From Tetradesmus obliquus (lineage: Eukaryota; Chlorophyta; Chlorophyceae; Sphaeropleales; Scenedesmaceae), in contig CP126205.1 of NCBI GenBank assembly GCA_030272155.1, positions 1,848,501 to 1,912,500 of the forward strand: DNA of 64,000 bases, read 5' to 3'. Numbering within the stretch: position 1 is the stretch's first letter; every line of letters begins with the position of its first letter. The notes below the pieces were generated by a model. The model searched no databases and had not been told where the DNA came from. It saw only the letters and a list, made by a program, of their open reading frames with translations. The translations under genes and the position numbers were made by a program. Positions 1,449 to 64,000 of the stretch are shown piece after piece.

Positions 1449-4400
1449 ATGTCCACCAAAGAAGAGCGACCCACACTTGCGGGCGTCAATGTGAAAACAA
1501 GAAAGAGGAACATTGTCGTCCCTGCTGATCCAGGATCCTTCGCTACAGCCATCGTTCAGATCTTCCAGGTGCCACAAGCAGTAGCAGCAGCAGTCTCGGT
1601 TCAACTGCAGCATGCCGGTCATGAAGCAGCCGTTGCAGCTGCCAGCGCTTCCCCTACGTATTCTACCATATGTTGTGAAATCCATAGACATGATCAGACA
1701 TAGGCGGGGCCGCTGAGCGTGCGTCTGCGTTCCCTTTTGGCTGCAGGACGCGGCCGATGGAGTGTCAGTAGAGAAGGACCTCGAGGCAGGCGTCAAGGTG
1801 CTAGACAGCGCGGAGCTTGACTTCAGCCGCTATGCAGACACGCTGTTTGAGGTGCTGTTCGCGGGAGGGCGCCTCTCCACGGGCGGCAACCTGGCAGACG
1901 ACCAGAAGGAGAAGCTAGCATTCAACGTGAGCTGCTACAGCAGCAGGCTACTGCACAAACAGGTAGATATAATCAATCCTCAGTCGCTGACGCTGTTTGT
2001 GTGTCTGTTGTGTGCAGGTGCTGGCCTCAGATGCCACGCCAGAGGCGCTGCTGCCTTACATCAAGGTCTTCCAGTCGCTGATCAGGTGTGCAGCAGTGTG
2101 CAAAGAGTGCAGCTGAGGCACCAAACAGCAGCTGCAGTGAAAGCCAAACGCCTGCTGATTGGTGGCTGCTGGGTGTACAGCAAACGGCCAGCTATATCTA
2201 GAGCAGTACAGCTGTACAGTACCAGCCGCGGCAGCAGCAGCAGCAGCAGCAGCAAGAGGCGCAGTAGCGGCAAGGCCTGGTGCTTTGCTCACGTCGCCCT
2301 AGGGCCATTGCAATGGTGCAGTGGTGCTGCTGCTTGTGCTCATAGGCAGCAGCTGCGGGCAGTGTGGCGAGTCTGGTGTAGCAGCCCATTGGCTGTGGCA
2401 GTGCAGCGATTGCCTCGGCCAGCGAAAGGGGTGTGTTGATGTTGCTCCTTACCCTTTTACAGCCAACACAGCTACACAAGGCACCCACAAGCAGCTGCAT
2501 TATTTACATCAGACTGTCTAGAGTTGCCTGTTCGTACGCTTCCTGCAAGGCGGCACCACACGCACATACACACCCATGCACTGCACCTGCTGCAGCGAAC
2601 GATCAGCTCGCAAGAAAAGTCAACTGCTTTCCCGCAAGCATCACACAGCGCTCCTCAGCCTTCTCACTGGTTCACTTCTCTCACCTCCTGGGTAAGAAGA
2701 GTGAACCAGTGAGAAGGCTGAGGAGCGCTGTGTGATGCTTGCAGGAAGCAGATGACGTTTCTTGTAAGCCGATTGTTCGCTGCAGCAGGCGCAGTGCATG
2801 GGTGTGTATTTGTGTGTGGCCCTTATCAAACAACTTCTCAAACCCGTTGTGTCTGCAGGCGCCGCCCCTTCCTGGTTAAGGGCCTGCAGGCCCGAAGCAG
2901 CTGTTCACGAGCACGCCGTCAATCTTTTCACTGCCATTCACACCGTAAAGTTGTAACTTCCCGCAGGCGCTGCCCTTTCCTGGTGAAGGGCCTGGAGGCC
3001 CCAAGCAGCTGCTCACAAGTATGCCAACTGCAAGCCATCACGCTTCTTGCTGCCATTCACACCGTGAACTTGTAACTTCCCGCAGGCGCCGCCCCTTCCT
3101 GGTGAAGGGCCTGGAGGCCACGCTGAACAAGTTCATCCTCAGCCTGGAGTTCTACGATGAGGCGGGCCGCAAGAAGATCGCCACAGGTGTGTAGTGTTAT
3201 TTGCAGAACTGCATGTAATGGGGGTTCCTGTCTTTCCTCAAGGCCGCAACGGAAGCTGGGGGTTGGAGCTTCTGCATGGTTGGAAGTGTGAGGGTGATGA
3301 TTTTCTTTTGTTGGCGCCCGCGGGATTCATGTTGCAAAAATGTAGGTAGGGACCACAGCGCTTTGTACCAGCCGGCGTCTGCTATCAAACCCTGCTTAGT
3401 CACCTTCACCTCTGATTTCCTTGCTGATGTTGCTGTCGGCTCTTGCATGCATGGAGCCACTGCTATGGCCTTCAGCTACAAGCTGGGCTACCTGCCTGCC
3501 TGCCTGAGGTCATGCCGTTGCTGCTGCTGATGGTTGGTCCTGTGCTGTTTGTTGTGCCTGTTGTGTTACTTTATACCTGCAGCCACTGCCATGGCCTTCA
3601 GCTACAAGCTGGGCTGCCTGCCGGAGAACGTGCTGCAGACGCTGCTGAATGACAGGCTGGTGGCCAAGGGCAGCGTGATGGGCTTCGTGACCACCTTCTT
3701 CCAGGTGCGTGCAGGTTTGTTTCGTTTCACATTGCAGCAGCAGTACAGTCTGTGCAGCAGCGCGACGGGCTTTGTGACCGCTTTCTTTGGGTGAGGTGTG
3801 GGTTCAGGGATGTGTTGTTCAGGCTTTGTGACAGCAGCAGCAAGGCCAGCAGCATCATGGGCTTCGTGACCACCTTCTTCCAGGTGGTTCTGCAATCTGC
3901 GTGATCGATTGACAGCAGCTGTGCAGCAGCAGCAGCTGGTTTTGCAGGAACGAGCCAGGACGTGTGCATCTGGCCAATCTCAGCAGTTGACGAGACGCAG
4001 ACGTCCTGGCTCGTTCCTGCAGTGTGTGCACCTGAGGTTGAACTTTTTCTGTCATGTAACAGGTGTTCGTGCAAAGTCCCTGGACGACCTAGTGGGCCTG
4101 CTGACCAAGGCTCGCGTATCTGCAGCCAGCTGTCTGTTGCTGACCTACGGATTGAATTCTGTGACTCTCCTGTTATGTAACAGGTGTTCCTGCAGATCCT
4201 GCAGAAGGAGAACCTGGACGACCTGGTGGGCCTGCTGACCTCGGCACATGTATCTACAGCCCAGCTGTCTATTGCTTGACTCACTGGTTTGACATGCTGT
4301 TATTCTTTTGTCATGTAACAGGTGTTCCTGCAGAAGGAGAACCTGGACGACCTGGTGGGCCTGCTGACTAAGGCGCGCGTGGTCATCCTGCTGCCGCAAG

Positions 4401-6095
4401 TTGCTGACTTTTTGAACGCTGTTACTTTTATGTCATTTTTTTGTTATGTAACAGGTGTTCCTGCAGAAGGAGAACCTGGACGACCTGGTGGGCCTGCTGA
4501 CCAAGGCGCGCGTGGTCAACCGGCTGCTGGACTTCATGCCCCCCAGCAAGCGCACCCTGGAGGACTTCAACACGCACTTCAAGTAAGCAGAAGGCTGATT
4601 AACTAGTGTTTGTGTTGCTTTTTGATAGGTTGACAGTTGCGAGTGTGCTGACTTCATGCCGCCCAACAAGCGCACCCTGGAGGGCTTCAACGCGCACTTC
4701 AAGTGAGCAGAAGGTTGCTGTTTTCTGACTGTGTACTCGACTATGTTCTGACACTGTGTTTTGATCATGCAAGTTCAACCCCTTGTCATTTGCGTTTACT
4801 GCAAGCTGGCCAGCAAGCGCACCCTGGAGGACTTCAACGAGCACTTCAAGTAAGATTAAGGAACAACACAGCTGCTGTCAGTTGTTGGGCAATAGCACAA
4901 GCAGGTCTGTCTCGGCACCTTCATTTCAGGCTGTTTTAGCCTGGGGAACTTGCAGCTCCAGCGCGTTAGCCGCAACGCTGTCGGGTTGGCGCTGCTGGTG
5001 GAGTGGAACATTAATGTTACTGCCATTGTCGCTGCTGTGCTGACACATTCGCTGCTTGTGTATGTGCTGCAGCGAGGCTGGGCTGGGCCCGCTGGTGGAG
5101 TGGAACACGCGGCACGCAATCTACATTTAAATGGCTGGGATTCTGTTTATAACCTATCTGCTGCCCTGCTGTGTTCTCTTTTGCAGCGAGGCTGGCCTGG
5201 GCCCGCTGGTGGAGTGGAACACGCGGCGTGAGATTGACACCAAGGTGGCCGAGCTGCAGGAGGGGCTGGAGAAGATGATGAGCGCAGACCCGCCCCATAG
5301 CTCTGCTGACATCATCAACTTTGTCAAGAGCCGCAAGGCTGAGCAGGTGCGGCAGATCAGGCGCATGACATTGTGCTGTGTCTTCGGTGTGTTTCCCGGT
5401 GTCTTCTGGTGTGTTTCTTATAATATAAACCCAGAGGTTTTGTGTTGTTGTGAAGGGGCATCTGGGGTGGCCGAGCTGCAGGAGGGGCTGGAGAAGATGA
5501 TGAGCGCAGACCCGCCACACAGCTCAGCTGACATCATCAGCTTTGTGAAGAGCCGCAAGGCCGAGCAGGTGCGGCTAGTTGTCTGTACCAGCATTGGCTC
5601 CGTGTTCTCCTGTTGTGGTGGTGTTTCAAATGGGTGCGTGTGCTGAGGTTTGGCGGGGTGGCAGCCGGTGGGTTGGCAGCCGGCGGTGTGGTGCTGTGCA
5701 TGAGTGTGGTGTGTGAGATGTGCACCCATTTTTTCCGAAGTGTTGGCTCCGACACACCCTCGTGCATCACCTCTTCTGAGAAACACAGGCAGCAGCAGCA
5801 GCAGTAGCAGCTCTTATGCGCAGCGTCTGCACCTGCGGAGGCGCCCCATGCCCCGCAAGTAGATCTTCACACCTGCGCCACAGCAGACCCAAGCCGCCCG
5901 CTAACTTAGCTGCCCCGCAATGCGTCAGTTGCTGGGGAGTTATACTCGGGCGGCACAGCTGAACCTATGCTGCTGCACACTGCTGATGGACGACTTTGCT
6001 GTGACGGCAGCAGCAGCAGCAGAAGGCGTCTGCACGGCAGTAGGTGCCAGCATGCTGCTCAGCAGCCGCACCATGCCCGCGCCCGGCAGCTTTTG

Positions 6096-6128
<33 letters not shown>

Positions 6129-6513
6129 ACACTTTTTTCCAGCAAGAGGTGAATTCAGAGGAGGGAGCCACTCCCAACCCACCTTCAGTGATTCTTAACC
6201 AGTGAGTGCAAACCCTGCAGCCCCTGCGGCAATTGAAAATGGATGTTGTTGCTGACACATATTTTCCTCTGCCGCTGCTTCCCTACTGCTTGCTTACTGC
6301 AGGGCCTGCCTGATGCGGACGTGGTGCGCGTGCTGTGGGTGTGCGTGATGCGCAGCTTTCTGACACGTGCTGCTGCTGCTGCTGCTGCTTTTGTTTCAAC
6401 CTTGCAGGGCCTGCCTGACGCGGACGTGGTGCGCGTGCTGTGGGTGTGCGTGATGCGCAGCGTGGCGCTGACCGGCAAGAACCAGGCGCAGATCCTACTT
6501 ATCAACCACATCC

Positions 6514-6550
<37 letters not shown>

Positions 6551-8479
6551 ACTGCCTTCACCGCAGGCTGTGCCGCATGTTGACATGGTGTGCGTGATGC
6601 GCAGCATGCTAGCACAACCTGACGTTGGTTGCTGCTCCTGCTGCTGCTGCTGCTGCTGCCTTTGTTTCAACCCTGCAGGGCCTGCCTGATGCGGACGTGG
6701 TGCGCGTGCTGTGGGTGTGCGTGATGCGCAGCGTGGCGCTCACGGGCAAGAACCAGGCGCAGATCCTGCAGACCATCGTGGCCAAGGTGAAGGCGCACCA
6801 CAAGCTGCTGGGCACGTTTGTGACCAACGCCAAGCTGGAGCTGACGCTGCTGGTCACACTGCAGGTGCGTGGCTGCATGACAGCTGTGTTGTAACGTCTG
6901 GTTGTTGTTTTGCCTGGTGTTGATGTATGTGGGCTGTTGTATTGGTAATTGTTTGATGTGTCGTGAGGGGTGTGTGCCAGCAGCAGGCGCAAATCCTGCA
7001 GACATCTGTGGCTTAAGGTTTGTCCAAGGTCGTGGCCTAGGTGAAGGCGCACCACAAGCTGCTGGGGACCTTTGTGACCAACGCGAAGCTGGAGCTGACG
7101 CTGCTGGTCACGCTGCAGGTGCGGTATCACATGTTTTGTTTCTTTCTTCTTCTTTCTTTCTTTGTGAGTTGTTTCGGCATTCAGCTGCCGGTCCTGCTCA
7201 CAACAGTCCCGTACATGACCTGGCAGGGTATTCAACGTGGCAGCTTCCAGCACTTTTTTCGACACTTGCAGCTGACACCTGCGAGAGCTCCACCGTGCCG
7301 TGCCTGCTACCCGCGTGTTGCCAGTAACTGATTTCGAGCTGATGCGCTTTGCTGCTGCCAGGTGCTACAAGGATAACCGGCTGCTGTGCAAATTTTACAT
7401 AATCAGCAATGCTCATAACTGCTGCTGGTGCTGCTGCTGCTGCTGCTGCTGCTGTTCTTGTAGGTGCTGTGCTACAAGGACAAATGGCTGCTGAAGCTGC
7501 TCAGCCACTGCTGGCAGCCACCCAACCACTGTCCGCCAGACAATTTGCTGACTCTCATTTCACCTTGCTTCACTGATGCGCAGGTGCTGTGCTACGCTGA
7601 AGCTGTTCAGCCACTGCTGGTAGCTGCTCACCCACAATTCACCAAACAACGCGCTGACACAACTGCTTGTGCCTGACTGTTGTGCAGGTGCTGTGCTACG
7701 AGGACAACCGACTGCTGAAGCTGTTCAGCAACTCTGTCAATCATTCCCTGTCCACAAAACAATGTGCTGACTCAGATCTCCCTGGCTTATATCTCCTTGC
7801 TTCACTGATGTGCACGTGCTGTGCTACGAGGACAACCGGCTGCTGAAGCTGTTCAGCGACATCATGAAGCTGCTCACTCACTGTCCATCAGATAGGGAGA
7901 CAACGTGCTGATCCAAACTGCCTTTCCTTGCCCTGTCTGCAGGTGCTGTGCTACGAGGACAACCGGCTGCTGAAGCTGTTCAGCGACATCGTGAAGCTGC
8001 TGTACAACGGCGACCTGGTGGGCGAGGACACCATCCAGCACTGGCACAAGAAGGGCTCCCACCCCAAGGGCCGCAACGTGTTCCTCAAGGTAAACAGATA
8101 CTTCTGTCTCATAGGCGTAGAACATGCCTGGAGGATGTGTGAGTTTTGGTTTCGCACAGTGTGACCTGCTGCCCGGGCAGCGTCATTAGAGTAGTTTTCT
8201 ATATCAGTACATCGCATCCCCTGTGCATGACCAGTGTACTTCGGTATCCTGGCTTTGTCTAGAATTCGTCATTTTACATCGCATCCCCTGTGTAATTGCA
8301 CTTGTGCACATATGTGCCCTGTTCTTTACATGTAGCATTTGTCGCATGTGTGGAGGTCCAAGCTGACTTCTTTGGCGCTGTTCTTGCTGCTGCTGCTGCT
8401 GCTGCTGCTGCAGGACATGGAGCCCTTCATCAAGTGGCTGGAGGAGGCAGAGGAGGAGGACGATGAGGAGGACGAGTGA
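1449..8479 (+). CDS. BZW: eIF5-mimic protein / BZW family (W2 domain), 10 exons, 425 aa
   Basis: Exons 1449-1568, 1747-1926, 2018-2085, 3086-3186, 3583-3704, 4455-4582, 5187-5346, 6679-6864, 7943-8089, 8414-8479; phases agree at every junction (1,278 nt including stop; animal BZW1 is about 419 aa). The N-terminus has the family signature [14 protein letters not shown] (residues 7-20), then [17 protein letters not shown] and GNLADD (exon 2). A helical MIF4G-like repeat region follows. The C-terminal W2 domain includes [13 protein letters not shown] and ends in the aromatic/acidic box [14 protein letters not shown] with an Asp/Glu tail. BZW/5MP proteins are cytosolic; they bind eIF2 and eIF3, compete with eIF5 and tighten start-codon choice. 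The start is the only Met ahead of the conserved N-terminus. Every intron from the third on carries copies of neighbouring exon edges, described separately. Confidence 0.93.
2553..2820. repeat. Long inverted repeat inside BZW intron 3
   Basis: Left arm about 2553-2675, right arm 2701-2820, 25-base spacer. The inner 42 bases of each arm (2634-2675 and 2701-2742) are perfectly complementary; the outer ~80 bases are diverged but still alignable (for example cacccatgcactg against cagtgcatgggtg). In pre-mRNA this would form a ~120-bp hairpin. It could be a small-RNA precursor, a MITE remnant or an inverted duplication. Confidence 0.85.
2859..3121 (+). repeat. Three tandem copies of the BZW exon 4 acceptor edge
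   Basis: Copies start at 2859, 2967 and 3086 (intact). Each has a cag acceptor followed by bases encoding R-P/C-F-LVKGL. The second and third units share upstream intron sequence too (attcacaccgt..gttgtaacttcccgcag), offset 119 bp. Only the last continues into the full exon and a donor. Confidence 0.88.
3453..3890 (+). repeat. Copies of both edges of BZW exon 5
   Basis: An acceptor-edge copy (about 3453-3500, encoding [14 protein letters not shown]) precedes the intact exon at 3583-3704. Two donor-edge copies follow (about 3767-3794 and 3848-3884, encoding GFVTTFFQ or close to it). Neither copy set has both splice sites. Confidence 0.85.
3943..4021. repeat. Perfect 21-bp inverted repeat (hairpin) in BZW intron 5
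   Basis: Bases 3943-3963 and 4001-4021 are exact reverse complements (inner motif gaacgagccaggacgt), separated by a 37-base loop. The arm length equals a Dicer product, but there is no further support for a small RNA. Confidence 0.8.
4062..4852 (+). repeat. Copies of both edges of BZW exon 6
   Basis: Acceptor-edge copies start near 4062, 4185 and 4321 before the intact exon at 4455. Each follows tatgtaacag or catgtaacag and encodes variants of [19 protein letters not shown]. Donor-edge copies at about 4650-4704 and 4812-4854 encode [11 protein letters not shown] followed by a GTGAGC or GTAAGA donor. The first acceptor copy contains an in-frame TAG. Confidence 0.88.
4980..5568 (+). repeat. 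Copies of both edges of BZW exon 7
   Basis: Acceptor-side fragments lie at about 4985-5010 and 5078-5117 (ctgcag then the [13 protein letters not shown] region). After the intact exon at 5187-5346, a 108-base donor-side copy at 5461-5568 encodes [20 protein letters not shown] and on to KAEQ, with the donor GTGCGG kept. That copy lacks an acceptor. Confidence 0.87.
6097..6124. repeat. AATC tetranucleotide microsatellite
   Basis: Seven perfect AATC units in BZW intron 7. The rest of 5569-6300 shows no exon; it holds CAG tracts and unique sequence. Confidence 0.95.
6302..7120 (+). repeat. Copies of both edges of BZW exon 8
   Basis: Acceptor-edge copies begin at 6302 and 6407 before the intact exon at 6679-6864. 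Each is ctgcag or cttgcag followed by [19 protein letters not shown] weak fragment lies near 6588-6606. A donor-edge copy at about 7042-7118 encodes [20 protein letters not shown] with donor GTGCGG. (CTG)n runs precede the acceptors. Confidence 0.88.
7361..7990 (+). repeat. Six copies of the BZW exon 9 acceptor edge
   Basis: Copies begin near 7361, 7465, 7584, 7689, 7817 and 7943 (intact). The segment encodes [14 protein letters not shown], mostly with a cag or tag before it; the fifth has cac instead, so its acceptor is lost. Only the sixth continues to a donor (8090). Spacing is 104-128 bp. Confidence 0.9.
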
Positions 8480-8582
8480 GCAGCAGCAGCGCAGTGGGTG
8501 GAGGCAGCAGCAGCAGCAGCAGTGGCTGGAGGCAGCAGCAGCAGCAGGTGCCGAATGCGGCAGCAGCTGCAGTTGGAGACAG

Positions 8583-8711
8583 AGGTGGAGGACAATGAGG
8601 AGGACGAGTGAGCAGCAACAGTGGCTGGAGGCAGCAGCAGCAGCAGCAGTCACCATTGGCAGCAGAGGCAGCAGCTGCTGCTGCAGGAGGACGACGAGGA
8701 GGACGAGTGAG
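8583..8711 (+). repeat. Two extra copies of the BZW acidic tail and stop codon
   Basis: Asp/Glu-rich tails ending GAGGACGAGTGA occur at 8471-8479 (used), 8602-8611 and 8701-8710. The third is directly preceded by a CTG-rich tract and a cag acceptor at 8684-8686, so 8687-8710 could serve as an alternative last exon in phase 0. Confidence 0.85.
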
Positions 8712-8814
8712 CAGCAGCAGCAGCAGGTGCCAACAGCAGCAGCAGCAGCAGCTGTTTTGAGCTGAGCTGCAGCATTGCAGTAGCTGTTGCCAGCTGAGTG
8801 ACGGTATGGCAGTA

Positions 8815-8846
<32 letters not shown>

Positions 8847-10863: not shown

Positions 10864-11730
10864 GAAAGGCCACATCGTCACCCTTAACCCCAACGCCAAG
10901 CCACGCAGCAGCATGATGCCCGGGCCCAGCAGCAGCAGCTTGCAGGACAATCGCAGCAACAGCAGCAATGACGCAGCTCCACATCTAGCTGCAGTCTCAC
11001 TGCAGCAGCGCAGCAGGTGGCTGCAGCAGCTGCTGCAGCTGCGGGCCCTGCGCAGGGCTCACAGGGCTGCAGTTGCAATGCCTCAGGCTGTGACAGGCAA
11101 GCAGCATGCGGTTTGCGGGCCGCAGCCACCGCACAAACAGGTGAGTACACACATATGTGATCCGAGCATGGAGGCTGAGCTGCTGCGGCAGCAGCTGCAC
11201 TGCCGCACCTTTCAGTGCAGTTGTGTGCATGCCTGCTAGTGTGTCAATGGTAAAACAGCAGGGGCCGCTGCACGACTGAGTGTGTGTGATTTGAGCATCG
11301 GCGCTGAGCTGCACGCAGCTAGGCAGCAGCAGTAATGCACACCAGGACCCACATGTAACTTCCTCGCTTTTAACTGCGCACCAGACATGCCACCAAACAA
11401 TAAAAATTATTATTCATAACAGACGCAGCAGCAGACAGGTTGCCCAAGCTGAGCATGCCTTGCTTGCCTCATTGCTGCTGTTGCAGGAGGTGCTGCTCAC
11501 CCGTGAAATTGCTGCAATTCGAGTGCTGATGCGTGTTGGGGAGGTTGCTCTTGACATAGCAGCCTCGCAGCTTGGTTCAGGAGAAAATGATACCCTGGCC
11601 AACAGTGCGCTAGCAGCTGCAGAGGCGGCAGTGGCAGCAGTGAAAGCCAGGGTTGCAGCTGCTGCAGCAGCCTCTGAACAGCAGCAACTGCTGCTGCAGA
11701 TGAGCAACCAGCAACCACAGCAGGGCCAGC

Positions 11731-11767
<37 letters not shown>

Positions 11768-11831
11768 AGAGCAGGAGTTGGATGATACATGCAGCAGCAG
11801 CGCCAGCATTTGTAGTCCTGGCGGTTGCTGA
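10864..11831 (+). CDS. Unknown protein, two candidate exons, 5' end not found
   Basis: Candidate exon 10864-11140 starts after aatgcag and reads KGHIVTLNPNAKPRSSMMPG, then Ser/Gln-rich sequence ending GPQPPHKQ before the donor GTGAGT. It joins in phase 0 to 11488-11831, after the acceptor ctgttgcag. That exon reads EVLLTREIAAIRVLMRVGEV and is followed by an Ala/Gln-rich helical stretch and the stop (to 11831). Good splice sites and a consistent phase support coding; low-complexity composition weakens it. No family recognised. Upstream exons may lie in 10148-10860. Confidence 0.35.
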
Positions 11832-32300: not shown

Positions 32301-34727
32301 CCAAGCTGGCTGGATGTAAGCGCTTCGTGGGTTGGATAGTTTATGGTTTTAGACGGTTTGAGAGCACAGTCATTAGGCTGTGGACAAGACCACGTGCGCT
32401 GCCACATGGCTGTTCAGGGTCGAGAAGGGACTCAGCACAGCATCCCCAGGCCCCCAGCACCACCTCTCAGTGGCAGCAGCAGCAGTAGCGCTGCCACACA
32501 ACCAAGGATATACAGAACAAAAACAACGTTGAAGCAGAAGAACCGCCCCCGTAGCAGCCGAAGCAGCAGCGAGTGAAACCGTGCGCACGACTTGACAACA
32601 CAAGTACAAACACTAACAGCACTACTCTCACCCACTCACCGCTGATGTATGCGTGTGGGCAGCCGGAGGGGATCAGCACAGCATCTCCAGGCCCCAGCAC
32701 CACTTCTTCTAGCAGCAGCAGCGCCAGCACTCCTGTGGCCTCACCCGGCCATGCAGCAGCAGCAGCCTGCGGCATGAACAGCAATGTAAAGCATGAGGAG
32801 GGAACACAATGGTGTGGTCAAGCGTCGACATGGCAGCAGTGCCCACACCAGGCTAGGCAGCAGCAACAGCCTGCAGCCAGAATATCGGTCGCGTTGGTGA
32901 GTTGAAGCGGTTGCACCACTCATACGTTGCACGGTGCTATTGTTGAAACAGGCTGCTCAGCAGTGCCTGCTCTGAGAGAGGCCAACATCCAATGTATGAC
33001 AGAATTTGCTTACCTTGATCATGGCATCGCGTGCAGCCAGGCCACCAGGCTCCGACACAACGCCCATCGCCAGAGTGAGGTCGCTGCTGTGGAAGTGGGG
33101 CGGCTCAGGGCCAGCAAGGGCTTGTGCCTCAGCAATTGTTGCTTTGCTAGAAGTGCCTGTTGTGGGGACCTTCACACCTGGCTGACTTGGGCCTGCATAA
33201 CAAGCAGCAGTGAAGCAACAGTTTTGGGTTTAGGGCTTGTGCAGGTGTGGCGACTCAGGGCCAGCCAGTGCTTGTGCCTCTGCAATGGTGGCCTTGCTAG
33301 ATGTGCCTGTGGATGGCACCTTGACATTCGGCTGCTGGCTGGGACCTGCGGAAAAAGAAGCAGAGGTACAGTGAAGCAATTTGAAGTTAAGGTTTCTGTC
33401 TTGTGAAGTGGGGCGGCTCGGGGCCAGCCAGGGCTTGTGCTTCAGCGGTGGTTGCCTTGCTGGAGGTACCGGTCGTGGGGACTTTCACACCTGGTTGGCT
33501 GCTGGGGCCTGCAGGGGCAGCGGTACAGCAAAGCCAACTGGGGTTTAGTATATCGTCTTGTGAAGTGGGGCGGCTCAGGGCCCGCCAGGACCTGTGCCTC
33601 TGCAATTGTTGCTTTGCTGGAGGTGCCGGTTGTGGGGACTTTCAGGCCTGCCTGGCTGGGGCCTGCAGGGGGCAGCGGCACAGCAAAGCAATTCATGATT
33701 GAGGGTTTGAGGTTAAGCAGGTGTGGCGGCTCAGAGCCTGCTAGGGCTTGTGCCTCAGCGATTGTGGCCTTGCTGGAAGTGCCTGTGGTCGGCACCTTCA
33801 CATTCGGCTGCTGGCTGGATCTGCAAAGGAAGATGCAGAGGTGCAGCGAAGCAATTTGGGTTGAAGGTTTTGGCTTGCGTGTAGGCGGGGCCAGCCAGGG
33901 CTTGCGCCTCAGTGATGGTGGCCTTGCTGGAGGTGCCTGCTGTGGGGGCCTTCACACCTGGCTGACTTGGTCCTGCAAAACAAGCAGCAGCACAGCAACA
34001 GTTTTGGGTCTTGGGTTTAGGGCTTGTGCAGGTGTGGCGGCTCAAGGTCAGCCAGTGCTTGTGCCTCAGCGATGGTTGCCTTGCTGGACGTGCCTGTGGT
34101 TGGCACCTTGACACCTGGCTGGCTTGGGCCAGCACATAATCGGCAGCAGAGGTACAGATCCACTTTGGGAGTATTTTAGGTTTTGTGCGTGTGCCTCAGC
34201 AATGGTTGCTTTGCTGGAGGTGCCAGCAGTGGGGACCTTCAGGCCTGGCCGCTGGCTGGGGCCTGCAAAAGACGCAGCGGAGGTACAGGGAAGCATTTTT
34301 GGGTTTGTGGTTTGTGAGAAGGTGTTGGAGGGTCATGTTTTAGTGCACACCTCGCTTGACGGCACCTCTACAACAAGGCATGGCAGTATCACACGGGAGA
34401 GAGGACAGCAAAATGGAATGGCAGCTACTGGCATCAGATCTCTCAAGTACCTGGTGGGAGGCGTGCTGCAATAGGTGCTTTGCTGACAGCAGCTAGTGCA
34501 TGACCACTTGCTGTTCAGCAAGCATCTCAAGCGGCACTCCTGATGCGAAAAAATCCAGGAAAATCCAAGAAAATCCAACCCTTGCATGCAGCAAAATATC
34601 CAAGTTGCTCAGCAGCACAACACAAACGCACGCTCACAGATGTACAAGCATTGTTTTCAAACAACTCAACTCTTTGTACCTCCCTATCATCATCACCCCC
34701 TGCTAGCTGCTGCCGCATCCCGCCTTC

Positions 34728-34802: not shown

Positions 34803-37111
34803 CACTGTGTACCAGCCAGCAGCAGCACAGCACCGCTGCCGTGCTGCTGCGCCTGCAGCCGCTTCAGCACCTCCTGCAGCGCCTGGGCAGCCAGGCCAAC
34901 ACCACCACAACGAAATAAAATACCCAGAACACACTGTAGGGTTTGCGTAACACACTGTAGGGTGTGTATAACACACTGTAGGGAAGTTCCCAAATTGATG
35001 CAAAGTTGCTACTCACCGGCTCCGGCATCACCTCCCACCGAGCTGCTGCCCCCTCCAGCCTCCACAGCAGCAGCAGCATTCTGCGTACCAGCCGGAAGCA
35101 GCGCAGCACCAGACCCCTGCTGCTGCTCCTGCAGCCTCTTCAGCACCTCCTGCAGTGTTCGAGAGGCCAGGTCTGGCGGTGTGTGCAGCAGCAGCTGCTG
35201 CCACATGGCAGCAAGCGCCTGCATGGTGACAAGCAGTGCAGCAGATGGGGGTTGTGTACGAGTAACACAGTGTCTCGCCCACTGTTCTGGGTGATGTGGG
35301 GCGTGAGGCCAGGTCTGACGGCGTGTGCAGCAGCAGCTGTTGCCACATGGCTGCCAGGGCCTGCATATTATTACAAAGAAGAAACATAAATTTGGGGACC
35401 GCCGGTGAATGCACTTTGCAGTGTTTGAGAGGCCAGGTCTGGCGGTGTGTGTAGCAGCAGCTGCTGCCACATGGCAGCAAGGGCCTGCAAGATGTCACAC
35501 AGAAGAAGCAGACAGCTGTTGATTGACTGCATGTGCCCCTTGCAAAGTCTGAGAGGCCAGGTCTGTCGGAGTGTGCAGCAGCAGCTGCTGCCACATGGCA
35601 GCTAGGGCTTGCATGGTGGCAAGCAGTGCAGCAGATGGGTGATGGGTACTTGTAACGGCATCTGTTGGCCGCTGTTCTGGATGGTGTCAAGTGTGCAGCA
35701 GTAGATGCTGCCATATAGCATACAGGGCCTGCAAATGCAGCAGCACAAAAAACTCCATCGTGTCATGCATGCTGTGAACATGAGCCATGCATTGACAGAT
35801 GTGTAAGCGAAGTCAGGCGTGCAGCAGCAGCTGCTGCCACATGGCAGCTAGGGCCTGCACGGAGAAAAGCAGTGCAGCAAATGGGAGATGAGTGCTTGCA
35901 AGGCAGTGACAACTGTTTTGGGTGGTGTGGGATGTGCAGCCAGGTCTGGTGGCGTGAGCAGCAGCAGCAGCTGCCACATAGCTAAGATGGTGCAAGGACC
36001 CTAAGATGGTGCCAGGGCCACATGTAACTATCCTCTCTCTCATAGCTGCTAGGGCCGACCGCTGCATAATGCATCTTGCATACTATGGCACGGCACGCAT
36101 GAGCTGCGTGTGGTTTTTTTTTTCATCTTTATCTTCATGTTACTGTGTGGTTTTTTGTGTGTGGTGTGTGCTTACAGAAGAGCCCTGCCAAGCGGCTGGA
36201 TTAGACGCAAGTAATCACCACACAAAACCCGCGCAGGTCCAGTCCCTCTTTTGGGTAGGAACATTATGGCACAGGAAATACATTTCGCACCGTTTGATGC
36301 CAGTGCTGGCAGACATCAATGCGTCTGGGTGGCGCAGTCCCTACTAGCATGCATGCACAGCGCCTGGCCCCCGCAGCTGGGTAGTACAAAAACGTCAGCA
36401 CCACCCAACACAAGTGTTGTTCAACTCCAAACACAGTTTTTGATTGAGTATGTATTTCAAAGCATCAACTGTGTGAACTTGCTAATGCATGATGCACGCC
36501 CACCTGCTGCCGTGCCTGTGCGTTGCTTGGCCCTGCAGCCAGGTAAGCTTGCACGTTCGGAGTCACCCAGCACCCCACAAGTACGCCGCACCAAAAACAA
36601 AGCACTGCTGAAGCAGCCACGTATAGCAATATCAGGAGCCAGTAACGCAGGCGCCTCCCCACCTGCTGCCGCACGCTTGGCCTGCAGCCTGGTATGCTTG
36701 CACCTTGGAGTCACCCAGCATCCCACGAGTACGCCGCAAAACAAAAGACAATGCGTTGCTCATTAATCACAAAACACAGCAGTGTGAGGAACCAGTAATG
36801 CAGGCAAACTCACCTGCTGCCGAGCATGCGTGTTGCCTGGCCCCGCAGCCAGGTTAGCCTGCACATTGGAGTCACCCAGCTCCCTGCAAGTACGCCTCAA
36901 CAAAAAGAAAGCACTGCTGAAGCAGCCACATAATATAGCAGTATCAGGAGCCGATACTGCAGGCTCCTCCGCACCTGCTGCCGTGCGTGTGCGTCGCCTG
37001 GGCCTGCGGCCAAGTAGGCTTGCACGTTAGAGTCACCCAGCACAGCAGCCAGCTGCGGCATTCTGCCCAGCAGCTGCGACATCTTGTCAAAGGCGAGGAA
37101 GCCTGCAAAAT

Positions 37112-37162
<51 letters not shown>

Positions 37163-40100
37163 GTATGGGTGGCTGTCAGTTGCGGCATGAGGCGCAGCAG
37201 CTGAGACATCTTGTCAAATGCAAGGTAGCCTGCAACATAAAAGCAGCAGCAGCAGCAGCAGCAGCAGCAACGTGTGAATGGCTGCTAGCTGTGGCATGCA
37301 CCCCAGCAGCTGAGGCATCTTGTCAAATGCGAGGAAGCCTGCAAACAGCAGCAGCAGAAGCAGCAGCAGCGGGTGGGTTGCTGGCAGCTGCTGCATGCGC
37401 ACCAACAGCTGCAACATTCCATCGAGTGCAAGGGAGCCTGAGGAAGCAGCAGCAGCCACAACAACAGCAGCAGCAGCAGCAGCTGCCACAGTAACAGCAG
37501 CAGCAGCAGCAGCAGCAGCATAGTGTGTCAGGTGCAAGCCAGATGCGGCAGCCAGCACAGCAGCTGTGACTCATGTCAACAGCAAAAGAGCTTGAGAAAA
37601 AGTTGGCAGAAGCAATGGGATATCATGTCTGCGGCTGTGTCATGTAGGTGTGACGTGTGACTGACACACAGCCGTAGCCACCACGTTACCCAAATCCACA
37701 CTGGGTTGCTTGCTCATCTGAAAAGCGACACCACCACGCGTGCCAGACGGCGCATTTCAGCTGAGCAAACAGCACAGCGTGCATTTGTCATACAACGTGC
37801 TTGGGCAGCATATGCTTGACAGGCATGTCATCGTCATGCAATCAAAATATTCAGCCAGAGCGACAACGCCATCTCTCACATGCTTGTGGGGCTCCATTTG
37901 CGCATGCAGTTCTGTACGCCGCCCAGGGCTTGCACCCAAGCAAACTAATGACAAAAGGTGTTGCTGTGTTGGCAGTGCCGCCGTGCTTGGTGCAGGCTTA
38001 TGAGCCAGGTCCAGCAATCAAGCACAACAGCATTGGAAACACAAAACAGAGGGCTCAACACACCAAGCACCAGCCGCCGACACAAACAGGCATGCTTCTG
38101 TTATCAAAACTCCAGCCAGGCATACAACACCAACAGCACTACCACAACACCCCCCTGCTGTCCACCCTGGCCATGTTGCAGCCAGAGCCTGCATCCACGT
38201 TCAAGTCACTTGTTAGTAACATGTTAGTAACATCACCTGCAGAGCAAGCAGCACTGCTGGCCTGCAGTACCAATTGCTTGCAAACCTGCTGATGCGTCTG
38301 CTGATGAGACCATGAGTGTCTAAATTCGTTCTTGTACGAACAGTCAGGCTGGCAAGCCTGGCGGCGGACGCACCGACTCCTGAGGACCACGGTGAATACG
38401 TGGCTGCGCATTCTAAGCACATCTGGGCTGGGTGACAAAAATACAGCGAAGAGTTGAATGCTGCACACCGCTTCTGGAGCGCATGAGCTTCCCGTCAAGC
38501 TCACCTGCAAAGCCTGAAAAGGAGTTGAGGGCCACCACCATTTCCGGCTTGTGAGCTTCGTCAGGGTAGGTCTGCGGCAGCGGCAGCAGCAGCAGCAGTA
38601 GCAGCAGCAGCAGCAGATGCGGCAGCAGTGACAATGGCCACATGTGCTTTGCCGAGCACCAGTGTGGTTGGTGCGGAGGGGCAACGCGATTACACAATTG
38701 CTGCGGGAATACAGCTTGTAGTAACCTCCTGCAGGTAAGTGCTACAAGAGTGAGCTCTAGTACCTCTTGCCCAGTTCTGCTGCTGCAATAGTAAAGTGGG
38801 ACTCACGGGCTACTGCACAGCCCAGAGAGCAGTGTCTCATCGAGCAGCAGTAGACCACCAGTGCCACACTACCAAAGGGCCGCCACAATGATTTTCAAAG
38901 CACAATCATGGTAATTGAAACTGTGCTGTGCTAACATCGACAACAGTTGAGCATCAGTGCGGTAGAGCATCCTGTGAGACTGGTGGCAGGCGCTTCCCAT
39001 AAGTATGTGACGCGCTCCGCAACAAGCCGCACACAACAGTCTTGCACACGCTGTACTGCAGACCCCAGAAAGGAATGAAAACCAACGCGTCGTAGGAAAC
39101 CACCAGGATCACATTGCCAATGCGCCACTACTCCGCATTACACAATAAACATTGCCGAATTGATAAACCGTGCTGTGCAAATGATTTACAACGGTGCTGC
39201 AGCAGCGTGGGAGTGCGAGATTATCCTGTGACACTGGTAGCAGATGCTCCCCTTGCAGACAGAGGAACATCTGGCACCGGCCTCACAAAACAGTCTTGCA
39301 CGCGCTGTTTCAACTGACAGCAGCCTGCCTAGGCAGCCAACAGCAGCATCTGCATATTGGCTGGTGTACTCAATTAAACAGCAGTAAAGCAGCCAATCAA
39401 CTACAAACATCATCCGGCAGTGCATGGATATTCTGTGGCGCTGGTGGCTGATCTTCCCTTGGGCAAAAGGAATTAGACCCCAGCGGCACAAAACAGTCGT
39501 GCACTTGCTCTGCCGTTGGAGGGTGTGGAGCCCAGGGGTGCCGGCGCGGCCCCTGGCCACACACACCCTCTTTGCCTTAACTTACCCAGGAGCTGCAGAG
39601 CTGCCTGGGTAGTCACTCACTCACTCACTTGCTGTGCTGTGCTGAGCATACCCTGCTTAGGCCTCACTGGATGCAGCAAGTGCATGCAGCGCTGGTGCAG
39701 TCCAACCAGGTCAATATGTAACATGTGTGTCATTTGATCTAGCTGCATACTGCTTGACTGGTGGCAATCGTGCGTCACTGCTGCTTCTGCTGGTGTGCAC
39801 GGCTGGCTCAGTCAAACAAGCCTACACTGCAGCTGAAGCACCATGATAATGTGCTTCAGCTACTGGACAATGTCCACGCCAAGGTGGCTAAGGCCATGTA
39901 GCTCTAGCACGCCAACATAAAAACATGGCAACATGGCAACCACTGACACCTATGCGTGTACCGTGGATATCAGTACAGGGTGTAGCCTATGGTGCAAGCG
40001 TGCCGCAGATCAGGGCAACACCCGCAGCGCAGGGCATTGGCTTGCTTCACATCTTTGGTCCTGCTTACACACAACAAGGACCTGAAGCACGCCCACCCCA

Positions 40101-43100
40101 GGAACCAAGCAGGACACCAAGGGCCACACTTGCAAACGCGGTACCTGCAGTATCTGCAGTACTTGTGTCCAGCACCATGCGCAAGAAGCCGCACCTGCCT
40201 TCACCAGCAAGGACAGCATCCAAGCCAAGGCTGTATGTGAATGCCAGACACTGCAGTTGTACAACAACTGTATACATCATATTCCTCAGCAATACCCCTG
40301 GGATCGGCGTGGTTGAACTCTTTGACGTCGTGTTCAGCGACAGACACACAGCTCAACCACACCCACCCCAGGAGCAAAACTGGACACCAAGAGCCGCACT
40401 TGCATTAGCAGCAACACTAGCCCCCAACAGCAATGGCTACACCTGACGTTCCTTATTGCACTTCATCAGGTACAGCAATGCGCCACTAAGCTGTGCCTCA
40501 TCCGAAACCCCATGCTGGCGTGCTAAGCCTTCTGGGGTGTGGGCATGACGCACCACGGATACGTACCACACCAACACAGGGTTTGTTCAGCACCCACCCA
40601 CATACAGAAACTTGTTGCTAGTACGGCCCAACAACCCCCAAGCCCACATGCATACTACTACCAAAGGAAAACAATGGCAACTCTGCACAACATGGTACCT
40701 TTGTGCAAGGCGGTGCGTACACAGCAACCATGCGCAACATCGCTACAAATTCAGCAGCTTGCGCCACTCTCGAAGCACAACATTGTCAACAGCAGTGGCT
40801 ACTGCAGCAGTGAGGAAGTACGGCTGGCCTACTGCAGTCTTCAACGTGTGGGCAGCAGTAGGCCAGCGATGCCACATCGCTGAACAGGCGACTACTTGAA
40901 GGCCAACCCTACCGTACATGTTGTGCTTCCAAATTGCGCACAGCTAAACTTCATACAAATGCGACAGTGCAAAAACATGTGGGCTGGAACCACATGTTGA
41001 CGTGCTGCAAGCTGCTGCAGGATGTAGACACCAAGCAGGAGTCGGCATCATGCTGCAGGAGCTGCTTCACCCCAACATGGCATTGATGATAACCAATGAT
41101 GACCAATGATAATGGACCACACACAAACAAAGGATCCCGAGTTGCTGCTGCTGCTGTTGCTGCTGCCGCTACTGCTGCAGATGCCTGGCAGAGTGAACTC
41201 AGCGTAGTACAAACTGTCAAGCCTACATCGCAGCTGCAACCTCATGTTGGTGTGCTGCAAGCTCCTGGAGGGTGTGGACACTGAAGGCTACACACTGCAG
41301 GAGCCGTAGCATGCCAACATGGCAATCTCCGACACCTACGCGCATGTCCTTGGTTTCAAAAGGCCACGCTTTTCAACTTGCAAGTGGCACAGCTAGTTTG
41401 CTGAAAACTATGATTGGTGCTGCGCTAAGTTGAGGATAATTATGATCAGTGCTGCAACACTAATGGATACAACACTGCAGCAGCAGTGTGGCAGAGCATC
41501 CTGTGGCACTGGTAGCAGGCACTTCCTCCAAAAGAGGGGGGTCTGTCACCAGCGACACAGTACAGCCTTGCACACGCCGTCCAACTTGCAAGTTGCACCA
41601 AACCGTTGAAATGGTGACATCAATGATACGTGCGGCGCTAATGGCTACAACACTGTAGCAGCAGTGTGGCAGAACACCCTGTGACAATGGTGGCATGTGC
41701 TTCACTGACCAGGGAATGATACGTGCGGCGCTAATGGCTACAACACTGTAGCAGCAGTGTGGCAGAACACCCTGTGACAATGGTGGCATGTGCTTCACTG
41801 ACCAGGGAATGATACGTGCGGCGCTAATGGCTACAACACTGTAGCAGCAGTGTGGCAGAACACCCTGTGACAATGGTGGCATGTGCTTCACTGACCAGGG
41901 AATGATACGTGCGGCGCTAATGGCTACAACACTGTAGCAGCAGTGTGGCAGAACACCCTGTGACAATGGTGGCATGTGCTTCACTGACCAGGGAATGATA
42001 CGTGCGGCGCTAATGGCTACAACACTGTAGCAGCAGTGTGGCAGAACACCCTGTGACAATGGTGGCATGTGCTTCACTGACCAGGGAAACACTAACCACC
42101 AGCCGCACGTGACAACTTGCACACGCTATTCAACTGACAGCAGCCTTCCCAGGCAGCCAGCAGCAGCACCTGCATTGGGGTTTAGGTTTAGGGCTAAACC
42201 CTAAACCCTAACCCCTGCATGATGATTGGTGTACCTGACACAGCCCGCTTGAAAACGTCAAGTCAACCTTGATAAGCTGCTGCAGGAATGCGCTGCAAGG
42301 CTAGTTCATGTAAGAGATCGCCCCATGACTTCAACCTGAAGTATATCAAACATGTTTTCCAGAAAAGCAGCAGCATCGTGTCAAGGCCTCACCTTGGCGT
42401 CTTTCTGGTGCAGCTTTTTGGCGGTGCTGGTAGTGGAGTGTGACTGCCCGCAAACAACCCACGAACCTGCAACATAACAAACGCAGCTGCAAGGTTGCTT
42501 TGCCTACCTTGGGGTCCTTCTGGTGCAGCTTTTTGGCGGTGCCGGTGGTGGGGTGGGCCTGCAGCGGCAGCGCCTTGTCGATGGACAGCACCTGCAGCAG
42601 ACCAGGCAGCAGCAGCAGCAGCAGCAGCAGCTGAATGATACTGCTGCTGCATCACCAACAACAACAGCTGCTGCACCATTTACATTACATGACATGACCT
42701 TACATGAATGTTTGAGGGGGATAGCAACCCATGACAAAACGCAAACAAAACAGCAACAAAGCAATGCTTATGCTGTGCCATGCAGTTTTAGGGGTATAGC
42801 TGCATGTGTTACACCATGCTGCACCTGCCAGAGGGGCAATTGAGCGCAAAACTTGCCGTTTCACTCGCACTCGCAACGATCAGCAGCCGGCCCTGGCCCT
42901 GCTACTGCTACTGCTGTGCATGTAATAGTTTTCCGTAATTGCTGCAGGTTTTGAAACGAAGGCAAACGCAAGACTATGAGTAATTGGCCCCACCTTATCT
43001 GTAAAAACAGCAGCAGGTCATAGCATGCGCATCGTGCTTAGGGTTTTGGTACCAACATACGAGTATAAAACAACTGGAACCACAATGTCACGTTCCCTTC

Positions 43101-50579: not shown

Positions 50580-51440
50580 ACTGGCTCCTGCAAGATACAG
50601 CATCACAGAATGAGCCAGCAAATCTCGCAAGCTGCAGCACCATGGTGTGATTCGAGCACTTCCTGCAAGCACTTCCTGCGAGCTGCAGCGTGCACACTGG
50701 CTCCTGCAAGCTGCGTCACCCCAGTATATGCAAAGCAAACACGGCAAGCTGCACTGCCACAGTATGATTCAAGCAAATCCTGCAAGCTGCAGCACCACAA
50801 TGTGCACAAAGCAAATTCTGCAAGCTGCAGCACCACAGTATGTGTCACGCACACGCTGCAAGCTGCAGCATGCACACTGGCTCCTGCAAGCTGCGCACCC
50901 CAGTATGTGCGAAGCAAACACTGCAGGCTGTAGTGCCACAGTATGAGCCAAGCAAATCCTGCAAACTGCAGCACCACAGTGTGCAGAAAGCATATCTACA
51001 AGCTGCAGCACCACAGTATATGTCAAGCACATGCTGCGAGCTGCAGCAGCATGCTGGCTCCTGCAAGCTGCGGCATCACAGCAGACACCACAAGCTGCAG
51101 CGTCACAGTATGAGCCAACCGAATCTTGCACGCTCCAGCACCACAGTGTGCACCAAGCGAATCCTGCAAGCTGCGGTGCCTCAGTATGAGCCAAGCACCC
51201 ACTGCAAGCTGCAGCATGCACACTGGCTGCTGCAAGCTGTTGCATCACAGTATCAGCCCAGTCATCATTGCCAGTTGCTGCACCGTATGAGCCAAGCAAA
51301 CCCTGCAAGCTGCAGCAACACATTATGAGCCAAGCAGACGCTGCAAGCTGCAGCATTGCAGTATGAGCCAGGCACTCGCCGCAAGCTGCAGCACGCACAC
51401 TGGCTCCTGCAAGCTGCAGCTTTGCAAAATGACCCACGTT
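50580..51440. repeat. Degenerate ~40-bp minisatellite (gcaagctgcagcaccacagtatg..)
   Basis: More than 20 copies of a unit close to tcctgcaagctgcagcaccacagtatgagccaagcaaa, with a variant carrying gcacactggctcctgcaagc. Spacing is irregular, around 40-45 bp. The long ORFs on both strands here are translations of the repeat. Palindromic cores (ctgcag, agct) are frequent. Confidence 0.88.
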
Positions 51441-51728: not shown

Positions 51729-51729
<1 letters not shown>

Positions 51730-51795: not shown

Positions 51796-51797
<2 letters not shown>

Positions 51798-54548: not shown

Positions 54549-54593
<45 letters not shown>

Positions 54594-56221: not shown

Positions 56222-56260
<39 letters not shown>

Positions 56261-59200
56261 TGCCGCCAGGTGGCCTCTGCTGTCATTGACCTGCAGGCCA
56301 TGCTTCCAAACGCGCGCGTGCTGTACTGCAGTGCCACGGGCGTGAGTGAGGTGAGGCAGAAGAGCATGTTTCGACTTGTTTTACCAGACCGCTGTCGCCA
56401 GTTGCTGTGGGTTTCTGCAGAAGAGAGCCAATCCACAGCTGTGTGAGGTCATGTTAAGACAGTTGCAAAACAGATAGAGTCTTGATCAGCAGCAGCTGCA
56501 AGCTTGAGCACATGCACAGCTAGTTTCTTTGCATCATGCCATACTTTGGTCCCTACGTGCTACCCACCGTAATTTATGCTTCCGATGCGATTGTACTGGG
56601 CTGATGCTGCTGCTAGGTGCTTAGCCTGATTTGTGAAGTGACAATGAGGGCATGCTTTGGCGTGCTTGTAGGTGGCCAACATGGCCTATATGGAGCCATG
56701 GGCCTGTGGGGACCTGCCAGCCCCTTCCCAGACTTGTTATGCATCAAACACATGTGTCCATACGCTGTTTGTGACAATCCCAGGTGGCCAACATGGCCTA
56801 CATGGAGCGCATGAGCCTATGGGGACCTGCCAGCCTCTTCGCAGACTTGTTATTCATCAAACACCTGTGTCATATGCCGTTGATGATAACTGCAGGTGGC
56901 CAACACCTCCTATATGGAGCGCATGGGCCTGTGGGGACCTGCCAGCCCCTTCTTGGACTTGTCACTCATTAAACACCTGTGTTATATGCTGTTTGTGACA
57001 ACCGCAGGTCGCCAACATGGCGTACATGGAGCGCATGGGGCTTTGGGGACCTGCCAGCCCCTTCCCTGACTTCGCTGCTTTCTTGGAGAGCATGCGCAAG
57101 CGGGGTGTGAGCTTCATGGAGCTGCTTGCAATGGAGATGAAGGCGGCTGGACGCTATGTGGCTCGCGGGCTGAGCTTCAGGTGCTTTGGTTGAATGTTTG
57201 ACCAGGTTGACCTAATGTCTGACTGATTGTTGATGTTTGTCCGTTGACGGTGAGCTCAGCTGCTGGCGATGGAGGTGAAGGCGCCTGGGCGCTATGTGGC
57301 GCGCGGGCTGAGCTTCAGGTGCTTCGACAAATTGTTTGACCAGGTTTGATTGGAGTTCTGCACAGCAAACGTGGCGCAGCACGATGAACAGTCGCCCTGT
57401 AGGATGCTCACAACTTTGACATTGGCGTGCCTTCATGCTGCTCTGCAGGCAGGCACTTGCAAGTAGAAGCGCCCCTCAGCCCAGCCAAAGTGGCACAATA
57501 CGACGCAGCAGTTGCTCATAATGTTTGTTTGCTGCCTGCCGCCATGCTGTCCTGCAGGCAGGCGGAGTTCCTGCAAGTAGAAGCGCCCCTCATCCCAGAG
57601 AAAGTGGCCCAGTATGATGCAGCAGTCGCGCTGTGGCAGAGCCTGCGCAGCAAGCTGGAGATGGCTCTGCAGCTGGCAGGCATAGACAAGCGGGACGTGT
57701 GGAAGACGTACTGGGCGGCGCAGCAGCGCTTCTTCAAGCTGCTATGTGTGGGGCTGAAGCTGGACACAGTGATTGCAGAGGTACGCTGGAGGACAGAGTT
57801 GGGCTGTAGGTGTCAAATGTTAGGATTGGGGCAGTGCAGCAGCGCTAGTTCAAGCTGCTGTGTGTGGGGCTGAAGCTGGACACGGTCATCGCAGAGGTGC
57901 GCGCTGTCGGGCCGGGTTTAGTTGTTAGGTGTGGGGTGTGGGTGGCGCAGCTGTGGTTCTATAAACTGCTGTGTGTGGGGCTGAAGCTGGACACGGTCAT
58001 CGCAGAGGTGCGCGCTGTCGGGCCGGGTTTAGTTGTTAAGTGTGGGGTGTGGGTGGCGCAGCTGTGGTTCTATAAACTGCTGTGTGTGGGGCTGAAGCTG
58101 GACACGGTCATTGCAGAGGTGCGCTGGAGGGCAGAGTTGGGCTGTAGGCTTCAGATGTTTGGGATTGGACTGCGGTGGCGCAGCAGCGCTTCTTCAAGCT
58201 GCTGTGTGTGGGGCTGAAGCTGGACACAGTCATTGCAGAGGTAAGCGTTTGCGTTTGGAGACCAAGTCGTTGAAGTGCTTGCATTGAGCTGCTTTCGTGC
58301 AGCAAGCAGGTTGACAGCAACCCATGTGGCGTTCCGCCGTGCTGTTTTGTGTTGCCATGCCTATACAGCGGTCGTCTCTTTCCAAGAGCAGCACTAGCTG
58401 TCATGCACATAATAGTCTTTGTGGGCACAGCCATGAACTTTTGGCCTAATCATCACACCTCACATGCGTGACTCTTCCTTTGCAACTTCTTCTGCTCAAT
58501 CATCCTCTGTTGCTTTGTCATGCTGCTGCCCGCAAACAGGCCAAGGCAGCGCTGGCGTCCGGCATGTGCGTGGTCATTGGGCTGCAACAAACACATACCT
58601 GTCCTCCTGTGTCTTGCTAAATGTTGCGTTCTGCAATCACCTGTTGTCATGCAGGCCAAGGCAGCGCTAGCGTCAGGCATGTGCGTTGTCATAGGCCTGC
58701 AGAGCACCGGCGAGGCAGCAGCAGATGCAATGGGGCTGGAGCCAGGCCCCTTGCCTGGCTTTGTGAGCCCCTGCAAGGAGATGCTGCTGCGCTTCATACA
58801 GCTCAACTTCCCAGAGCATGCGGCGCAGTCGCCTGAAGGTGGGCGTTGAGGCTGTTGCTTGTGTCTGCTGACTCAGTGAACGGGGCGCAGCCGGATATGC
58901 CTGCATGCTTGTTGTTTTGCTGTTGCTTTGTGTGGCATTGCAAGGAGATGCTGTTGAGGTGGATTCAGCTGAATGTCCCAGAGCATGCCGCTCAGTCGCC
59001 TGAAGGTGGGCAGTGTGGATGGCTACTAGCTGAACTTCCTGCAGCAGCCTGCACGTGTCCCGCCTGCTAGGACACTGTGACAACGCACGCGTCCTGTGCA
59101 TTCCCATATGCTGGTTATGTCCTGCATAATCATGTTCCCGTCTGTCTGCAGCTGCAGCGATGGGCCTGCAGCCTGAGGCCATCCCCGCCTGCCGTGCCAT

Positions 59201-64000: not shown

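Follow-up and report, generated by a model that had tools for sequence, protein, structure and literature searches.

Partial copies of exon edges in introns of the green alga Tetradesmus obliquus, probable relics of recurrent tandem duplications across exon-intron boundaries

The closest case known to the arrays described here is that of the potato RdRp gene, for which a tandem duplication across an intron-exon boundary, together with an 83-bp duplication within the intron, is described as leading to a new intron (PMC4974935). The genome considered here belongs to a species with long introns: for T. obliquus UTEX393 (108 Mb) the published account gives 7.8 introns per gene with a mean length of 462 bp, and for four other green algae mean intron lengths of 230-302 bp (PMC5966456). 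The assembly that we sampled comprises 104.66 Mb in 17 contigs, and the window, i.e. the whole stretch of 64,000 nucleotides that was analysed, corresponds to C15:1848501-1912500.

Self-alignment of the window revealed at least 156 pairs of same-strand repeats other than CAG that lie less than 3 kb apart, and when the window was divided into 8-kb tiles, the pairs within 1.2 kb were almost exclusively direct (158 direct vs. 1 inverted), with repeat coverage of the tiles ranging from 0.04 to 0.43. Runs of CAG/CTG triplets are numerous across the whole window and complicate repeat searches. For 401 nearest pairs from the window, 62 loci elsewhere in the genome and 3 random stretches, the distance between neighboring copies is most often 100-140 bp (123/401; the first-pass annotation of this DNA had put the spacing at about 90-160 bp), and the identity of the copies in the same pairs has a median of 85% (5-95% range: 71-98%).

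The repeats are best resolved in a gene on the forward strand (1449..8479) that encodes a BZW/5MP protein, as judged from matches to the W2 domain. Its 10 exons (1449-1568, 1747-1926, 2018-2085, 3086-3186, 3583-3704, 4455-4582, 5187-5346, 6679-6864, 7943-8089 and 8414-8479) are separated by GT-AG introns and yield a spliced open frame of 425 aa. Copies occur at 6/9 acceptor and 4/9 donor edges, and exons 1-3 have none. The start of exon 4 has two copies (2859..3000, from 2859 and 2967, each 94% identical over 34 bp), the start of exon 5 has one (3457..3496, 95% over 40 bp) that has hardly any intron in common with the exon, the intron extension being inside the null range, and the end of exon 5 has two (3757..3883, 84% and 88%). 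Exon 6 is flanked by three copies of its start (4063..4381, 85-100%) and two of its end including the donor (4646..4849, 91% and 95%). Exon 7 is flanked by two copies of its start (4994..5113, 98-100%, one of just 17 bp) and a 103-bp copy of its end (5466..5575), in which the homology ends 7 bp into the intron; exon 8 by three copies of its start (6303..6608, the outermost 100% identical over 54 bp) and an 89-bp copy of its end (7030..7123), in which it ends 5 bp into the intron. Exon 9 has five copies of its start (7362..7874, 82-98%). The end of the last exon, with the stop codon, recurs twice in the 3' flank (8575-8611 and 8685-8710, 92% and 96%), with a third match at 8521-8548 (82% over 28 bp). 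Copying thus extends beyond splice sites: coding edges are involved as well, and a description in terms of splice sites alone is insufficient. The introns of this gene also contain inverted repeats (2556-2819 and 3943-4021; 41 bp at 93% and 21 bp at 100%), which could form hairpins and are perhaps MITE-like.

A second gene on the forward strand was identified as SBNO from matches to PF13872 and PF13871, with exons that are predictions, and copies were found at 2 of the 7 exons searched. The exon predicted at 57008-57180 has its start copied three times upstream and its end once downstream (56672..57318, 86-90%), while the exon at 57562-57780 has one edge copy upstream and four downstream (57458..58240, 83-97%). 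De novo exon chaining was useful for SBNO, never placed the first BZW exon correctly and performed poorly for PMI and for the region at 16-20 kb. The PMI gene, on the reverse strand, owes its identification to PF20511 at one exon, other than exon 33192-33014, and its array exons were delineated by eye. On this footing, exon 33192-33014 is preceded by seven upstream copies of its start with a spacing of 132-163 bp (33014..34262), a second array comprises an exon start at 35218 and five upstream copies (35018..35854), and exon 37102-36975 has three start copies upstream and three end copies downstream (36504..37437). In the last of these exons the start copies and the end copies meet near one exon position, so as to form a near-partition of the exon, and at 1507-1965 of the sampled locus L034 (a DEAD-box gene) the upstream copies likewise end, and the downstream copy begins, near the same exon position. 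The lengths of start and end copies sum to nearly the exon length in three cases (133 vs. 128, 178 vs. 186 and 127 vs. 128 bp) and fall short of it in other exons (75 vs. 122 and 126 vs. 173); a partition of exons at a single point was therefore rejected, as the sums fit some exons and fail in others.

To quantify the arrangement we used the 60 bases at either end of each of the 10 BZW and 7 SBNO exons as probes of the adjacent DNA, with thresholds taken from 100 dinucleotide shuffles. Exon-start probes gave 20 matches upstream and exon-end probes 14 downstream (including 3 from the last BZW exon). The wrong side is represented by 3 downstream matches of exon-start probes, and each of these comes from the last BZW exon, which at 66 bp is so short that its two probes overlap; no exon-end probe matched upstream, and the reverse strand gave a single match. 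These counts bear out the rule, proposed in the first-pass annotation, that acceptor-side copies lie upstream and donor-side copies downstream of the intact exon. That annotation had also put the number of copies at roughly 70, where our count reaches 52 (25 in BZW, 9 in SBNO and 18 at three PMI exons, the latter by eye), which leaves about 70 plausible for the whole window. It had further ascribed the pattern to four genes, and three of them, BZW, PMI and SBNO, do exhibit it, while the 16-20 kb region shows direct repeats in the self-alignment, its exons being putative only; a Pfam search of this region returned no match. Other repeats in the window include a perfect tandem array at 41622-42088 (a 93-bp unit repeated five times with 100% identity, indicative of very recent duplication), an array with diverged 38-bp units at 50586-51420 and, at 29000-32300, several diverged copies of a motif of about 100 bp, running from CTGCACAGCTTGCCGCTGCTGG to the near-inverted CCAGCAGCAGCATGCTGCGCAGT, which resembles a small element or a satellite.

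Beyond the window, the genome was sampled by means of 64 coding segments with Pfam matches and their 1.5-kb flanks, 62 of which lie outside the window. Repeat pairs within 1.2 kb of each other were direct in 328 cases and inverted in 2, and repeat coverage was nearly the same in the coding matches (0.170) and in their flanks (0.158), a further sign that the process extends beyond splice sites. Copies of the coding match were found in the flanking DNA of 20/62 exons outside the window, 72 copies in total, and their orientation with respect to the exon is strict: with a tolerance of 10 bp, 22/23 copies located upstream start at the 5' end of the match and 46/49 copies located downstream stop at its 3' end, while no upstream copy stops at the 3' end and no downstream copy starts at the 5' end. 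Across 124 flanks, searches with the reverse complements of the coding matches gave no match. In a control with the flanks of other loci there were 21 matches in 744 comparisons with same-gene neighbors allowed, and 12 in 992 without them (11 among PF00270 loci and 1 among PF00227 loci); as these 12 are confined to pairs of PF00270 or of PF00227 loci, they were taken for related exons. In six random 10-kb stretches the direct pairs numbered 1, 6, 10, 0, 0 and 3, and inverted pairs were absent (a slightly different mask gave one inverted pair in this set, in L067). With repeat coverage of 0 to 0.13, these stretches are poorer in repeats than the window.

Expressed per gene, copies at a sampled exon were seen in 17 of 42 gene places, on 10 contigs, which is a lower bound for genes. 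The pattern is therefore widespread in the genome without being universal, and the window is rich in it. The exon-edge copies that the first-pass annotation reported are real, and the genome-level process it proposed, with enlarged introns and decoy splice sites, is supported by the sample on 10 contigs and by the D1-protease decoy described below; in our sample of the genome, copies are common beyond its four genes. Its assertions that every multi-exon gene is affected, and unrelated genes equally so, do not hold, given the 17/42 gene places (a lower bound per gene) and the comparison with random stretches.

Tandem arrays are a known weak spot of assembly, and 20 of the 401 nearest pairs are at least 98% identical, so that one may ask whether misassembly or sequencing errors have inflated the repeats. 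We consider this explanation hardly credible: the median identity of 85% argues against it, as the first-pass annotation had already reasoned from the divergence of the copies, and so do the strict direction (22/23 upstream and 46/49 downstream), the recurrence of the pattern on 10 contigs and the block shuffling of four 10-kb stretches, which left no direct pairs.

The next question concerns the way in which the copies change. Seven loci whose coding match is interrupted by stops (L019, L025, L029, L035, L043, L058 and L059) were left out of exon chaining and of the codon-position, intron-sharing and exon-identity analyses (the last being the kind applied to L034 below); L009 and L036, where matches fall inside the coding match itself, were also left out of the polarised-change, identity and intron-sharing analyses, L001 and L020 of the intron-sharing analysis (72 copies), and the in-window loci L003 and L004 of the codon-position, identity, flank-copy, gene-place and intron-sharing counts. 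In the exon-identity analysis, alignments in which a stretch had been paired with itself were discarded. In 79 copies from 55 loci searched, mismatches between copy and exon are distributed over the three codon positions as 121/84/294, and gaps are frame-shifting in 42 cases and not in 5. The raw excess at third positions had been considered as a sign of coding constraint in the copies, and this interpretation was dropped once the changes were polarised (65 anchors, 29 of them with copies, 103 copies): changes specific to a single copy are distributed as 55/48/70, which does not differ significantly from the expectation based on base mutability (p = 0.22), while changes on the exon side, where all copies agree against the exon, are distributed as 4/1/17, and mixed sites as 14/7/63. 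The polarised gaps are frame-shifting in 29 cases and not in 2. Hence the copies drift like non-coding DNA and behave as neutral relics, whereas the exons change mainly at third positions, and different copies keep different states of the exon, as is expected if the copies are of unequal age or derive from different alleles.

The neutral mode of change bears on the idea that the copies are functional decoys, kept for the tuning of splicing or as alternative exon ends. In BZW and SBNO the AG is retained in 15/16 of the acceptor-side copies inspected (of 20) and the GT in 10/10 of the donor-side copies inspected, and exonic parts are better conserved than spacers, both of which would fit such a role. 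However, by our estimate this retention is about what low divergence alone would give, the changes specific to single copies show no bias for codon position, indels are frame-shifting in nearly all cases (29 vs. 2), and the copies measured are partial and stop inside the exon. Together with the absence of a decoy from a solved protein structure, described below, this makes a functional role improbable in our opinion.

The solved structure is that of the D1 protease. A gene on contig C3 encodes stretches identical to 1fc6 and 1fc7 in the PDB over 61 and 48 residues, and in the alignment of its predicted protein to 1fc7 (residues 2-388) two single residues differ, apart from stretches of mispredicted exon. 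We take these structures to be from Scenedesmus (Tetradesmus) obliquus itself, which identifies the genome as that of T. obliquus or a near relative; plastocyanin sequences pointed no further than to green algae. The exon predictor accepted positions 3750-3840 of the sampled locus L071 as an exon of this gene, reading ANVVCMLVNRGDLVLTA, where the solved protease carries VNVARMLVDRGDLVLIA, encoded from position 3841 onward. The segment 3750-3840 is a copy of the exon start located 91 bp upstream, with 5/17 residues different, and it forms the only direct pair in its 6.5 kb. In this one gene, then, the residues of the decoy are missing from the solved protein. Gene finders are evidently misled by such edges, which should serve as a warning for automatic annotation.

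Considering all these features, we think it probable that short tandem duplications across exon-intron boundaries have occurred repeatedly and left the copies behind, with splicing concealing them and drift, perhaps also exchange with the exon, altering them afterwards. According to this scenario, tandem duplications, mostly of about 100-140 bp, would straddle the exon boundary; a duplication spanning the acceptor would leave the complete exon downstream, and one spanning the donor would leave it upstream. The surplus half-exon would fall in the intron and be spliced out, so that the mRNA would be unchanged and selection would leave the copy alone, while duplications within exons would be purged. 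Purging inside exons combined with the splicing out of edges would allow only edges to accumulate, each kind on one side, and survival alone could yield the observed direction. The exonic part would remain recognizable longest, because selection keeps the exon constant and drift acts on the copy alone, whereas both intron flanks drift. Next to the boundary, exonic 35-mers have a mean identity to the exon of 0.90 in 16 acceptor copies and 0.93 in 10 donor copies, and for the adjoining intronic 35-mers the mean identity is 0.705 and 0.66, respectively, vs. 0.605 and 0.593 for unrelated flanks.

Many outermost copies stop at the splice site, which simple duplication followed by drift does not predict. 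Splice boundaries for 72 copies were predicted as the best matches to a matrix derived from 9 BZW introns, and with these boundaries more than 12 bp of intron are common to copy and exon in 45/72 copies, and the remaining 27 share no more than that. Sharing of at most 14 bp of intron, a cut-off chosen after the data were seen, characterizes the outermost copy in 19/25 arrays and inner copies in 11/47 (p = 3e-5). Among the outermost copies in BZW and SBNO, in which the exonic match is 34 to 103 bp long, 6/7 on the acceptor side and 4/6 on the donor side have no intron homology above the 95% null, and 8/48 donor copies end at intron positions +5 to +7, where 1.5 are expected under a crude uniform null. 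The most extreme case is found in L034, where 135/135 bases are identical and the homology ends 6 bp into the intron. Since 135 untouched bases stand beside a lost flank, drift cannot be the cause; for such a copy we favor the explanation that the duplicate is old and that the exon has recently overwritten its exonic part, the alternative being a birth event that copied the edge alone. Simple duplication with drift as the full answer was accordingly rejected for part of the arrays. A search of the genome for the source of the L034 spacer, which skipped simple repeats, found only the spacer itself, and the possibility that spacers form a mobile family was likewise rejected: when 20 spacers and 13 outer flanks from BZW and SBNO were compared with the window and a set of the sampled loci, no spacer match outside its own gene was longer than 23 bp.

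The same observations, namely the scant intron of outermost copies (19/25 arrays by the post hoc cut-off, and 6/7 and 4/6 in BZW and SBNO), the excess of donor copies ending at +5 to +7 over the crude null and the abrupt end of the identity in L034, could be accommodated by a different birth event, in which only the edge and the footprint of the splice site (about 6 bp of donor intron, or the acceptor AG) are duplicated and set apart from the exon by a new spacer, for example by a step templated by RNA or cDNA, with ordinary tandem duplication multiplying the units later. Yet the inclusion of more than 12 bp of intron in 45/72 copies and the copying of the BZW stop-codon end argue against it, the splice positions were themselves predicted with the matrix from 9 BZW introns, and gene conversion acting on the exonic part of an old duplication would give the same picture; we thus judge it unlikely, if worth keeping in mind. 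Its farther-reaching form, in which edges are copied up to the splice-site footprint across the genome and the splicing machinery or RNA helps to make DNA duplications, appears to us a rather long shot. If it were true, introns would grow by accretion, with the conserved exon as a lasting template and the copies as holders of older synonymous states.

Within the preferred scenario of boundary-spanning tandem duplication, unequal exchange or gene conversion would in some arrays have renewed the exonic part from the exon, for which the support is mixed. When decoys are compared with each other, exonic parts are less diverged than spacers in 7/7 arrays; a difference of up to a factor of two is expected because the template exon is constrained, and this factor is exceeded in 4/7 (the acceptor and donor arrays of BZW exon 6, BZW9 and SBNO2), for which exchange or conversion is one explanation. 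Distances in the exonic part show no correlation, or an inverse one, with those in the spacer in the arrays PMI33, SBNO1 and SBNO2d, and a positive relation in L034, PMI35, PMI37, PMI37d, BZW6 and BZW9; none of 7 permutation tests found a significant correlation between them. In the acceptor copies of PMI37 the exonic parts are more diverged than the spacers, and one copy in L034 differs from the intact unit by 2% in the spacer and by 14% in the exonic part.

In summary, the arrays point to a way in which introns can become longer next to splice sites that are already present, with no need for a mobile element, and they occur in a species with long introns. They offer a natural test for splicing, as serial similar acceptors or donors are presented and one must win, and, by keeping older or other-allele synonymous states, the copies form a small record of the past of each gene. 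Among the entries listed by searches of the open-licence literature, a scope outside which most subscription papers fall, there was no report of genome-wide exon-edge arrays. Tandemly duplicated alternative exons are complete copies with both splice sites and under coding constraint, whereas the copies measured here are partial, with changes of their own that are neutral by codon position and with mostly frame-shifting indels. The green alga Haematococcus lacustris is similar in that short repeats occur in long tandem stretches, and the passages describing them do not mention copies of exon edges (PMC7617258). Introners, as described, share with the present arrays a genome-wide process that affects introns, but there one family occurs in many genes, while here each array is built of its own exon, with spacers that belong to no family (PMC9860276); the matches of BZW and SBNO spacers outside their own gene, at most 23 bp long, do not reveal the same family in many genes. 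Intron gain by tandem duplication of AGGT is similar in that splicing conceals a tandem duplication from the mRNA; according to its description a duplication within an exon makes an intron (PMC3443670), whereas here the duplications affect boundaries that were already there, and it is the introns that seem to become longer. Instead of introns made of duplicated exon from AGGT to AGGT, in BZW and SBNO we find exon-start copies upstream and exon-end copies downstream of their own exon, amid unrelated or spacer sequence. The likeness is greatest to the potato RdRp gene, as described, where the duplicated piece runs from an intron into the exon that follows it, and a formerly exonic piece turns intronic (PMC4974935): here, too, the repeats are direct (328 vs. 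2 inverted) and in 45/72 copies include exon together with more than 12 bp of adjoining intron. The potato case concerns one gene, one main event and a new intron, whereas in T. obliquus many genes are affected, the copies form serial arrays and both ends of exons are involved.
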